Below, piece after piece: positions 26,585-29,402 of a DNA stretch of 51,821 nucleotides. The stretch spans positions 67,818 to 119,638 of the forward strand of contig NZ_DS996841.1 in NCBI RefSeq assembly GCF_000156655.1, written 5' to 3'. The position numbers were made by a program, and so were the translations under genes. This stretch comes from Holdemanella biformis DSM 3989 (GTDB lineage: Bacteria; Bacillota_I; Bacilli_A; Erysipelotrichales; Erysipelotrichaceae). Numbering within the stretch: the first letter of the stretch is position 1; each line of letters opens with the position of its first letter. The notes beneath the pieces were generated by a model that made no database searches, was not told the DNA's origin, and saw nothing but the letters and a program-made list of their open reading frames with translations.

Positions 26585-26607
26585 AATTATACAACGAGGT
26601 GATGCGA

Positions 26608-27267
26608 ATGTCTTTATTTAATCGAAGAAAGAAACCTATAATAGTAACAATCCATGGATTTGGAAGAAATCTAAGTCATGAATTTGATCCATTAGCGCGC
26701 TATTTAAAAGCTAAAAAATATGAAGTAATCCAATTTGATATGTATGATTTAAACAATCCAAATGATGCCAACTACAAAGATTGGGTACAAAGATGTGAAG
26801 CCAAATTAAGTCTTGCCATTAAAGAAAATCCCAATGTCATTCTAATTGGATTCTCCATGGGAGGTGTAATCGCCAGTTATTTGGCTAGCATTTATAAAGT
26901 GCAATCCTTAATCCTTTGTGCACCGGCCTTTGAATATCTTGACATCAAAAAAGTAACGGGTTTATTTAAAAAATCCGACAAAGAAAAGAAAGGCCCAAGC
27001 TCAAAGCAGTACCAAGCCTTCACAAAGATTGTTTCTCAATATAAAGAATCCATTTCTCAAATTGAATGTCCAATCCTTATGTTGCATGGAACAAGTGATG
27101 AAGTGATTGCCCCATCAAGTTCTACTCATGCCTATAAAAAAATTCCGGCCCAAAAGAAACGATTAATATATATTGAAGGTGCCAAACATAGAATGTTATA
27201 TGATGGAAGAATGGAACAGACTGTATTTACAATCATCGAACAAATGCTTGAAAATAAAATATTCTAA
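26608..27267 (+). CDS. Alpha/beta hydrolase (serine esterase/lipase-like)
   Basis: A 219-residue serine hydrolase. The oxyanion strand VTIHGFGRN and the nucleophile elbow GFSMGG are clear. The likely acid lies in LHGTSDEVIAP and the catalytic His in EGAKHRML. It is cytoplasmic (no signal peptide). It resembles small carboxylesterases or monoacylglycerol lipases; the substrate is unknown. The ATG at 26608 is chosen from the SD GAGGTG about 6 bases upstream; longer in-frame starts at 26599 and 26602 overlap that SD. Confidence 0.85.
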   Translation: MSLFNRRKKPIIVTIHGFGRNLSHEFDPLARYLKAKKYEVIQFDMYDLNNPNDANYKDWVQRCEAKLSLAIKENPNVILIGFSMGGVIASYLASIYKVQSLILCAPAFEYLDIKKVTGLFKKSDKEKKGPSSKQYQAFTKIVSQYKESISQIECPILMLHGTSDEVIAPSSSTHAYKKIPAQKKRLIYIEGAKHRMLYDGRMEQTVFTIIEQMLENKIF

Positions 27268-27294
27268 AAAGCTGTCGAATAAGACAGCTTTTTC
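27267..27294 (+). terminator. Terminator of the alpha/beta hydrolase gene
   Basis: AGCTGTC and GACAGCT arms flanked by AAAAA and TTTTT. The loop is GAATAA. Confidence 0.85.
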
Positions 27295-27354
27295 ATTTAT
27301 TGCCAACTATAAAATATGCTTTATCTAAAGATATTCTAGCATATTTTCATTTCC

Positions 27355-27486
27355 ATTTGCACCTTTAAGGACTTTTTTATTAACTTCATTTGCACCTATA
27401 AGCACTTTTTTCACTCCTCCATTTGCACCTTTAAGGGCTTTTTTTGCCTTATGATTTGCACCTACAAAGAAAAAAAGCCTGTATTT
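27355..27486. repeat. Four tandem 33-bp repeats, non-coding
   Basis: Units start at 27355, 27388, 27421 and 27454, exactly 33 bp apart. Each begins ATTTGCACCT. The first three continue with a W-TAAG-like stretch and a six- or seven-T run; the fourth diverges after about 12 bases and merges into a terminator. The remaining roughly 9 bases of each unit vary. Units 1 and 3 contain the palindrome CCTTTAAGG. The gap 27295-27467 holds nothing else I can identify. Confidence 0.8.
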
Positions 27487-27497
27487 CTACAAGCTTA
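27468..27497 (-). terminator. Terminator of the 100-aa gene
   Basis: Minus strand AAGCTTGTA and TACAGGCTT arms (one G-U pair) around GAAA, followed by a run of T. It overlaps repeat unit 4. Confidence 0.75.
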
Positions 27498-27797
27498 ATC
27501 ACCAATAATTGAATAAAACTGATCATAAGAAGGTTTTAATACTTCATATACATCTGGCTGAATACGATATTGCGTATAATCACGCAATCTTCCATCCTCT
27601 TCTTTTTCAATGACCCTTCTTTCAATCATTTTTTTATTCTTCAATAAACCACCCTGTTTGACATCACCCTTATATTCCAAAGGTTCATTATCATTATCTA
27701 ATAGTTCTTCAAACAAAGCCTTATCCTTTTTATTTAAGGATGTCATAAAATTCCATAAATCTGGAACATTCATCTTTTTCTCTTTCTTAAAAAACAT
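27495..27797 (-). CDS. 100-aa basic/charged protein, function unknown
   Basis: From the ATG at 27797, with AGGTGAT 5 bases upstream; a slightly longer frame to 27806 lacks support. The sequence is highly charged (KKEKKMN, LNKKDKALFEELLDND) with a basic middle (GGLLKNKKMIERRVIEKEE) that could be a small nucleic-acid-binding fold, but no family is recognised. It follows the AAA/PD-(D/E)XK gene by 24 bases and probably shares its transcript, ending at the terminator before the 33-bp array. Confidence 0.6.
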   Translation of the reverse strand: MFFKKEKKMNVPDLWNFMTSLNKKDKALFEELLDNDNEPLEYKGDVKQGGLLKNKKMIERRVIEKEEDGRLRDYTQYRIQPDVYEVLKPSYDQFYSIIGD

Positions 27798-27821
27798 AAT
27801 TATCACCTATTTTTAATACCA

Positions 27822-29402
27822 TTAAAACTTCTCTATTTTACAACGATGTTCTTTTGTCTTGGAATCATAAGTAATTCCAACCAATAATAAATTATCGGTA
27901 TATTCTTGAATCGATTGAGGATATACTTTTTCCTTGATTTGATCTAATGCACTTTGAACATTATGATTCCATTTTAGCTCCACCAATAAGGCAGGATAAT
28001 AATCTTTATATTCAAGTTTAGGAATATAAACAAAATCCGCAAATCCTCTTCCTGTTGGCAATTCTCGTATTGGTTTAAAATAATATTTCAAAGTTGATAA
28101 ATACGCAATTGTTAAAACACTGCTCAAACTATTTTCATTATGATATGTAATATTAGAAGCATACGTATTATGAATCTTTTCCATTTGTTTAGCTACAACT
28201 TCTGTCTTCATTTGACAAGTTGCTTCTAAAATGGTATCCGATTCCCTTTCAAATTGAATCAAATCATTCCATTTATCTTCTGAAACAGAATTCACAAATT
28301 CTTGTCGAATTTCTTCATTTGGAATAAATACCGTCTTATATGTTTGATTGTATCCCAAATATCCTAAATGAACCAATGCCGTTAAGACATCATCCATATT
28401 TTTAAATGAAACCATATCATTTTGAAAAGACGTTGTCTGCATCTTCACTTCATTACCACTTAACATTTCTAAAACAGCTTCTTTTAAGCCATCAAAATTC
28501 ATTTGAATCAAACTATGAATTGATTCATAGCTACTTGTCTGTGCCCAATAACCTTGAAACACACCTAAAGTAAATAAACTCACAACGGCTTTCGGATTAT
28601 ATACATGCTGATGATTTAAGTAATATCCATCATACCATTTTTTAATTCTATCAAAATCTATATTGTATTTATTACTTAATCCTTTTACTTCCCCCTCTGT
28701 AAATCCGATAAAAGAAGCCAATGGACCTGGATTTAACATTGTATATTCATCAAAATTATTCAATGCGGACTGTGTCATCGTTCTTTTGATTGGTAAAATA
28801 CCTGTTAAATACGCTAATGCGATATAACGAGAAGGTTGTGATCCTTTAAATAATCCTTTTAAGAAATCAATATATTCTTCTAGTAATTTTTTATTATCCG
28901 CATTATCACGAATCAATACATCCCATTCATCAATGATTACCACAAAGCGATGTCCTGTTTCATCATTGATTTTAGAAAGTGTACCAGACAAAGAAATAAT
29001 TCCATTATAGTCAATATTGCAATACTCATTCTGTAATTCATGCATACAACTCTCTTTGATATAATTGACAATATCATTTATATTTTCAACTTGATCTTTA
29101 CACCACTGTACATCAATATGAATGACATCATACTGATTTATATACTTTTCAAATGTAGAACACGAAGAAATCGTATATGGCTGAAATAATTCTCTAGAAT
29201 CACATCCCTTTGAATAATAAGCACAAAGCATATCGGCAGTCATGGATTTTCCAAAACGTCTAGGTCTTGAATTACAAATGAATTTAGCTGTAGTTGAAAG
29301 CACACTATTTGTATATTCAATTAAACCCGTTTTATCCACATATATTTTTGAATGAACCGCTTCATTAAAATTCGCATTATCGGGATTTAGAAATATAGAC
29401 AT
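27822..29402 (-). CDS. AAA-ATPase-like protein with PD-(D/E)XK nuclease-like C-terminus
   Basis: A 526-residue member of the paired AAA-ATPase-like/PDDEXK_9 family common in gut anaerobes. The N-terminal part has the family opening YVDKTGLIEYTNSVL and a P-loop-like NSRPRRFGKSMTADML. The Walker B-type VVIIDEWDVLI follows at about residue 155. The C-terminal 90 residues hold a nuclease-like core: Asp in GFADFVYIP and ExK in ALLVELKWN. The biological role of these proteins is not established; they are often multicopy and accessory. AGGAGG precedes the ATG. Confidence 0.85.
   Translation of the reverse strand: MSIFLNPDNANFNEAVHSKIYVDKTGLIEYTNSVLSTTAKFICNSRPRRFGKSMTADMLCAYYSKGCDSRELFQPYTISSCSTFEKYINQYDVIHIDVQWCKDQVENINDIVNYIKESCMHELQNEYCNIDYNGIISLSGTLSKINDETGHRFVVIIDEWDVLIRDNADNKKLLEEYIDFLKGLFKGSQPSRYIALAYLTGILPIKRTMTQSALNNFDEYTMLNPGPLASFIGFTEGEVKGLSNKYNIDFDRIKKWYDGYYLNHQHVYNPKAVVSLFTLGVFQGYWAQTSSYESIHSLIQMNFDGLKEAVLEMLSGNEVKMQTTSFQNDMVSFKNMDDVLTALVHLGYLGYNQTYKTVFIPNEEIRQEFVNSVSEDKWNDLIQFERESDTILEATCQMKTEVVAKQMEKIHNTYASNITYHNENSLSSVLTIAYLSTLKYYFKPIRELPTGRGFADFVYIPKLEYKDYYPALLVELKWNHNVQSALDQIKEKVYPQSIQEYTDNLLLVGITYDSKTKEHRCKIEKF

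Follow-up and report, generated by a model that had tools for sequence, protein, structure and literature searches.

The window analysed here (the whole stretch of 51,821 nucleotides from Holdemanella biformis DSM 3989, contig NZ_DS996841.1) carries a short array of direct repeats in the intergenic region between an alpha/beta hydrolase gene and the gene of a 103-residue protein. Its four units lie at 27355, 27388, 27421 and 27454, with spacings of 33, 33 and 33 bp, and share the core ATTTGCACC on the plus strand, which is GGTGCAAAT on the minus strand. Read on the minus strand, a unit consists of this core and about 9 variable nt, followed in three of the four units by an A-tract and GTnCTTAAA or a near variant of it. 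Tracts of T6, T6 and T7 begin at 27373, 27406 and 27439, unit 4 has no tract at that offset, and CCTTTAAGG is found in units 1 and 3. An earlier note, made from the bases of this stretch, had described the exact 33-bp spacing, the T6-7 tracts at a fixed offset in three units and the sequence common to units 1 and 3. All of these are borne out, the spacing by the unit positions as well as by Tandem Repeats Finder (TRF), according to which this is the single period-33 array in the window and its units are 75–81% alike. A period of 33 scores best over 180 nt (z 6.3), a value reached in none of 1000 dinucleotide shuffles; when the whole intergenic region is searched at periods 20–60, the match fraction at 33 is 0.459, against a maximum of 0.442 in 2000 shuffles. 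A significant 31–34 bp period was found at none of the 46 tested gene starts of the window. Arrays of clustered regularly interspaced short palindromic repeats (CRISPR) have unique spacers of about 25–45 bp between their repeats; the present array fails as one, its whole period being 33 bp and each of the two variable stretches measuring about 5 nt in the profile of its clade (see below).

The earlier note had suggested looking for the unit elsewhere in the genome and comparing copy number between strains. In the window genome (G000), the array occurs once; the exact unit has no second occurrence there, and two matches with 3 mismatches are single sites. In the other genome of the genus that was compared (G001), the flanking genes are 92–93% identical to those of the window and the same four-unit array is present, and between the hydrolase gene and the array lies a gene for a 452-residue ATPase, which begins just past the array and is directed away from it. 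In 272 genomes of the host family, searched with 2 mismatches allowed, a pair of units 33 bp apart was found in one further genome, from a different genus (G118, named record L101), where five units end directly before the gene of an ATPase 68% identical to that of G001. The remaining matches of this search, in five genomes, are single sites, two of which fall inside a conserved gene. The array is, as the note had it, non-coding and phased with the helix, and it recurs in relatives, with four units in G001 and five in G118.

In Pfam, the genes behind the array in G001 and G118 both give AAA_14 and DUF4143. No ATPase gene lies between 27267 and 27495 of the window, and a search of the window genome for a close homologue of this ATPase gave no match at E 1e-60. 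Alignment with G001 nevertheless places a relic −10 box and a relic leader beside the array (Table 1): from the −10 box to the start codon, 17 of 24 positions are identical (local alignment p 0.006), with the ribosome site and the start codon degraded. Given that such a degraded leader would be left unexplained by a fresh insertion in G001, a loss of the gene from the window lineage offers the simpler account, under which the feature in the window would be an orphan upstream array that remained after deletion of an ATPase-nuclease gene.

Table 1. Features in and around the orphan array, in positions of the window.
Feature	Position	Strand	Remark
Alpha/beta hydrolase gene	26599..27267	+	Synteny anchor, present in G001 too
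Terminator-like hairpin, bidirectional	27266..27293	both directions	The ATPase gene occupies this place in G001
Relic leader of the lost AAA_14-DUF4143 gene	27309..27332	-	Ribosome site and start codon degraded
Relic -10 box TAGAAT	27333..27338	-	TATAAT in G001; TATGC before it
Array of four 33-bp units, without its gene	27355..27486	-	Recurs before the ATPase gene in G001 and G118
Core, promoter-proximal unit	27355..27363	-	GGTGCAAAT
Core, third unit	27388..27396	-	GGTGCAAAT
Core, second unit	27421..27429	-	GGTGCAAAT
Core, promoter-distal unit	27454..27462	-	GGTGCAAAT; near the terminator of the 103-residue gene
Terminator-like hairpin of the 103-residue gene	27475..27496	-	Overlaps the array end
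Gene of a 103-residue protein	27495..27806	-	Weak DUF7191 match; synteny anchor, present in G001 too
AAA-ATPase_like + PDDEXK_9 gene	27822..29402	-	Not cognate to the array

When named genomes were scanned with ten ATPases as queries, 80 loci were obtained, which span Bacillota, Bacteroidota, Chlamydiae, Lentisphaerae, Gammaproteobacteria and others, with one in Bifidobacterium; our samples are weighted to gut and rumen Bacillota. Two loci that were partial or broken and two with too little upstream DNA were dropped, and for the remaining 76 the 180 nt before the start codon were tested for periods of 20–60 against dinucleotide shuffles (p <= 0.01). The upstream period is significant in 48 of these 76 ATPase genes, and in 46 of the 48 it is 32 or 33; irrespective of p value, 32 or 33 is the best period in 60 of the 76. 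Among control genes of the same loci (n=225), 17 are significant and one has a period of 31–34, and among the mostly intergenic control genes none of 140 falls at period 31–34. The comparison of 46/76 with 1/225 gives a Fisher p of ~1e-32, as a nominal value for loci that, being related, are not independent. A typical array among the 46 comprises 3.8 units (median; range 2.0 to 6.8), and the median distance from the array end to the start codon is 16 nt. We conclude that a private array of evenly spaced repeats precedes many genes of this ATPase-nuclease family, a rule that is apparently undescribed.

This comparison with control genes contradicts chance or a neutral tandem duplication (a minisatellite) between two genes as the origin of the repeats. 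The limited likeness of the units in TRF and the position of the orphan between two genes without an obvious target would suit such an origin, yet the exact spacing and the core are kept across genera and phyla before the same gene family, and we give this explanation next to no chance.

Within the clade of the window array, 54 of 56 intervals between neighbouring GGTGCAA cores measure exactly 33 bp. A profile of 79 units has GGTGCAAATAAT and the A-tract conserved and two stretches that are nearly random. Of 27 genes, 20 have their last core inside the 16–18 nt spacer between TTGnnn and a good −10 box, where 0.6 would be expected; the window and G001 stand outside this count, and the G118 gene is not among the 20. 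The architecture is operator-like, and its exact register differs between members.

On the minus strand, the earlier note had seen one frame open through all four units with no start codon, and had kept coding descent in play. The GGT-GCA frame is indeed open across the three 33-nt intervals and has no start codon in the window. It is open in G001 too, where several of the differences from the window retain similar residues (by eye); the terminator of the 103-residue gene has a T7 run in the window but a T6 run in G001, and the resulting shift of the open frame is the reason why that of G001 starts with ATG (63 residues). Across the clade, however, stop codons interrupt the same frame in 18 of 54 intervals between units, at 15 of 25 loci, the peptide has no significant Pfam match (best E 0.19), and in other subclades the unit is wholly different with the period unchanged. 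A related protein gene containing the repeats, which according to the note would mark them as a remnant, was not found: in the examined relatives the array stands before a gene and not inside one. Coding descent is thus not supported, and it is very improbable that the array is what remains of a gene whose protein had an 11-residue KKxLKGAN repeat.

The sequence of the unit varies between groups of the family. The clade of the window array has GGTGCAAATAA, one Bacteroidales group has AAAACTTGTAAC and another has TTGCACGGATTGG, while the units of Chlamydiae and Gammaproteobacteria are palindromes of the kind CACnTTTT...AAAAnGTG. Among the 46 arrays, a 9-mer is shared by 0.85 of the pairs whose proteins are >= 60% identical, both within phyla (118 pairs) and between phyla (20 pairs); for proteins below 35% identity the fraction is 0.17, and in shuffled DNA it is 0.12. 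In the window genome, seven array regions and the orphan share a 9-mer in 4 of 28 pairs, where 4.3 are expected from shuffles. Since the unit sequence tracks the protein and not the host, the factor that reads it appears to travel with the gene. Among the genes around the array that were compared, the ATPase is the only one seen to travel with it. In Bifidobacterium panos, an actinobacterium, six GGTGCAA units form a long array of the clade (L103); here the gene appears to have been transferred jointly with its array from one phylum to another.

The same figures bear on the idea that the units are sites of a host DNA-binding protein, or curved DNA or UP-like elements without a dedicated binder. 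The A/T tracts are conserved at a fixed phase in the unit and may bend the DNA, and AAAA-rich half-sites are common to many arrays (by eye), both of which would fit. Against it, the units are unlike between paralogues of one genome, at the level expected from shuffles, and alike across phyla for like proteins. The best conserved part of the unit is the GGTGCAA core, which in relatives is located in the promoter spacer. We regard a host factor or curvature as improbable.

PADLOC assigns the relatives' genes behind the array to its phage defence candidate PDC-S01 (AAA_14 plus DUF4143), with full-length matches to the models PDLC04786, 04788 and 04792 (E 8e-124 for the G118 gene); from the window itself this gene is missing. 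The G118 protein was modelled by AlphaFold2 with 51 sequences, at a mean predicted local distance difference test score (pLDDT) of 90.6. In a VIA structure comparison, residues 1-330 match archaeal ATPases best (2qen, Z 15.9, root-mean-square deviation 4.8 over 272 residues; 2fna, Z 14.8), followed by NLR/CED-4 and origin recognition complex (ORC) chains. From the matched folds we take this part to comprise a P-loop module, a lid and a winged helix. For residues 236–451, modelled separately (pLDDT 86.9), the top 12 VIA matches are all nucleases, CARF nucleases and McrC being the best (Can2, Card1, Cdn1 and McrC), with Z of 7.7 to 6.8, which is below the caution line of Z 8; the candidate PD-(D/E)XK residues E351, E375 and K392 are invariant in the 51 sequences. 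Foldseek ranked ORC chains first with low TM-scores, and we did not rely on this ranking; at the sequence level, the ATPase profile matched no solved structure. The accessible text of PMC12988326 describes an ATPase plus PD-(D/E)XK architecture for PDC-S01 and places it fourth in frequency among the defence systems of prokaryotes, counting 9986 copies in archaea and 29494 in bacteria; for most such candidate defence systems, validation is pending (PMC12988326).

For replication, a class-wide sample was drawn by two PADLOC models. The window genome's own two loci were left out of 30 and 30, and 5 of 29 and 1 of 29 loci were then removed as having no intact frame. Of the PDLC04786 loci, 12 of 24 are significant, all at period 32 or 33, whereas none of the 28 PDLC04787 loci falls at period 31–34 and one has a period of 40. 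Hence, the array marks a subtype. The rule is not strict, given that L169, one of the array-bearing genes of the window genome, is nearest to PDLC04787. In total, this genome (2.5 Mb) has at least 12 intact AAA_14-DUF4143 genes (loci L167-L179; C30, C35, C37, C38, C39), and a further copy with an in-frame stop was left unscored. Six of the 12, L169 included, have a significant period of 32, 33 or 34, one has 33 at p 0.03, and five have none. Ten of 58 plasmid records were analysed: three loci reach significance, with a period of 32 or 33, and in the rest inspection by eye shows between one and three units or none at all. PDLC04787-type genes without an array often carry a private palindrome in one or two copies near the promoter (by eye, at five loci), such as TTTTACGGTTGTAACCGTAAAA, as if these genes regulated themselves by a different layout. 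Directly upstream of a broken AAA_14 gene in the window genome (L175), what resembles the end of a gene for a TnpB-like zinc-ribbon protein is followed by hairpins (by eye), so that an element of the IS605 type perhaps adjoins this broken copy.

Taken together, the repeats in the window are probably, though with real room for error, the 5' control array of a deleted AAA_14-DUF4143 gene (PDC-S01, PDLC04786-like), whose ATPase repressed itself through a winged helix on its own array. Intact loci, those of G001 and G118 and numerous others, have an array of about 2 to 7 units, each of 32–33 bp, that ends in the promoter. As units recur every 32–33 bp, or three helical turns, they present nearly the same face of the helix. 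In the GGTGCAA clade, the last unit provides the −35 region and places its core in the 17-nt spacer. The ATPase, via its predicted winged helix, would bind its own repeats cooperatively along one face of the DNA, cover the promoter and thereby block RNA polymerase; because each paralogue has its own repeat sequence, these circuits would not cross. In the window lineage the body of the gene would have been lost, so that an array with a decaying promoter and leader was left with no gene to control, and the orphan presumably has no function now.

Several observations weigh against this proposal. The period test is failed by 30 of the 76 genes, some of which have one or two units by eye and some none. 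In the window and in G001, the last core lies ~10 bp, or about one turn, further from the −10 box than in other members of the clade. When the domains were compared for how well their pairwise identity follows the arrays, the winged helix, with an area under the curve of 0.586 against 0.576 and 0.556, was not singled out as the specificity domain, and the winged helix of STAND (signal transduction ATPases with numerous domains) proteins need not bind DNA. As for the orphan, its conserved positions are intact in 51 of 53 cases, compared with 48 of 53 in G001, and differences between the two fall in 3 of 53 conserved columns and 10 of 55 others (p 0.07). This gap is not significant; hence the orphan array may be a young relic, or it may still have some role.

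Two related ideas would give the array a part beyond transcription. In the first, each PDC-S01 gene of this type would be a self-contained unit that addresses itself: a multimer of the ATPase-nuclease on its private three-turn array would set the level of the protein and also hold the nuclease poised, an infection that disturbs this complex would release or activate the nuclease, and orphan arrays would be decoys or scars; such a link between DNA binding and the nuclease is conceivable, and we hold it to be rather unlikely. In the second, the array would belong to an immune or selfish mechanism, either as a platform (a sensor or lock) for the ATPase-nuclease or as a target site for the spread of the gene, in which case the window would be an empty site. 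The joint travel of array and gene across phyla, the dissimilar arrays of array-bearing copies in one genome, the nuclease-like fold joined to an ATPase in a family of defence candidates, and the array without a gene in the window all agree with it. Yet the coincidence of the last unit with the promoter is more simply explained by an operator, the degraded leader in the window favours loss over an empty target, and no run of at least 3 units was seen in the 24 viral contigs that have two GGTGCAA copies at a spacing of 33; we therefore see a platform or target site as unlikely. Viral decoy arrays were rejected as candidates: in the stretches of these 24 contigs that were examined there is no third in-register unit, most of the pairs resemble coding repeats, and a second pattern gave none.

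The earlier note had placed the array beside an AAA/PD-(D/E)XK gene; in fact the 103-residue gene intervenes, and the ATPase-like gene comes only after it. This AAA-ATPase_like/PDDEXK_9 gene was rejected as cognate, having no array upstream and no PADLOC match. It is a bystander, and the cognate gene is a different ATPase-nuclease, which is missing here. The bystander represents a second kind of ATPase-nuclease and has a short leader. Of the two terminators beside the array, which the note had called convergent, one is bidirectional and the other serves the minus-strand 103-residue gene. A phage origin was also rejected: a phage collection returned only three unannotated faecal records, which match the region of the AAA-ATPase_like gene, and the ATPase scan of viral contigs returned three distant loci.

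Several known systems share features with these arrays. Plasmid iterons are private direct repeats by the gene of their binder, a self-repressing Rep protein with winged helices; their units of ~20-22 bp are spaced by whole turns and serve replication. The present arrays are similar in having private repeats beside the gene of the presumed binder, whole-turn spacing and a winged helix, which is predicted here. They differ in a period of about three turns and in the protein, which is of the AAA_14-DUF4143 kind; no Rep-type initiator domain was found in the G001 and G118 gene products, for which Pfam gives AAA_14 and DUF4143 only. Archaeal Orc1/Cdc6 genes adjoin origin recognition box (ORB) repeats, which are recognised by the AAA+/winged-helix protein that the gene encodes. 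Here too an AAA+/winged-helix protein is the presumed reader of repeats by its own gene, and the G118 model matches ORC-like folds; the ORB repeats have an origin role, which the present arrays are not known to have, and the present protein has a nuclease-like domain attached. According to the part of PMC5859096 available, BldC acts as a cooperative regulator on direct repeats, as we propose for the ATPase, but is a small MerR-like protein with sites of variable length and a regulon, in contrast to a private array. In a defence island of E. coli, the RptR-type operators are direct repeats that overlap the promoter of a defence locus, as here, and repress through several repeats (PMC12255303, in the portion accessible). 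There, three 9-bp repeats are read by a separate small repressor, where our arrays have 32–33 bp units with the ATPase as presumed binder; the palindrome within the RptR repeat has counterparts in part of the present arrays.

In the available text of PMC12988326, an upstream array is not mentioned for PDC-S01, and no published description of these arrays was found in the open-licence literature (DUF4143, COG1373, AAA_14/PF13173, PF13635, PDC-S01, PADLOC candidates, 33-bp repeats). Operator arrays as such are known; widespread private three-turn arrays before a very common candidate defence nuclease appear to be new. A putative private DNA ligand before many PDC-S01 genes offers a concrete handle, with predictions for the target of the protein, for the way in which copies within one genome avoid cross-talk and for how expression of the nuclease gene is held down. 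Orphan arrays such as that of Holdemanella biformis can mark past gene loss, and the arrays of the family make up a ready set of natural, mutually distinct operator arrays.
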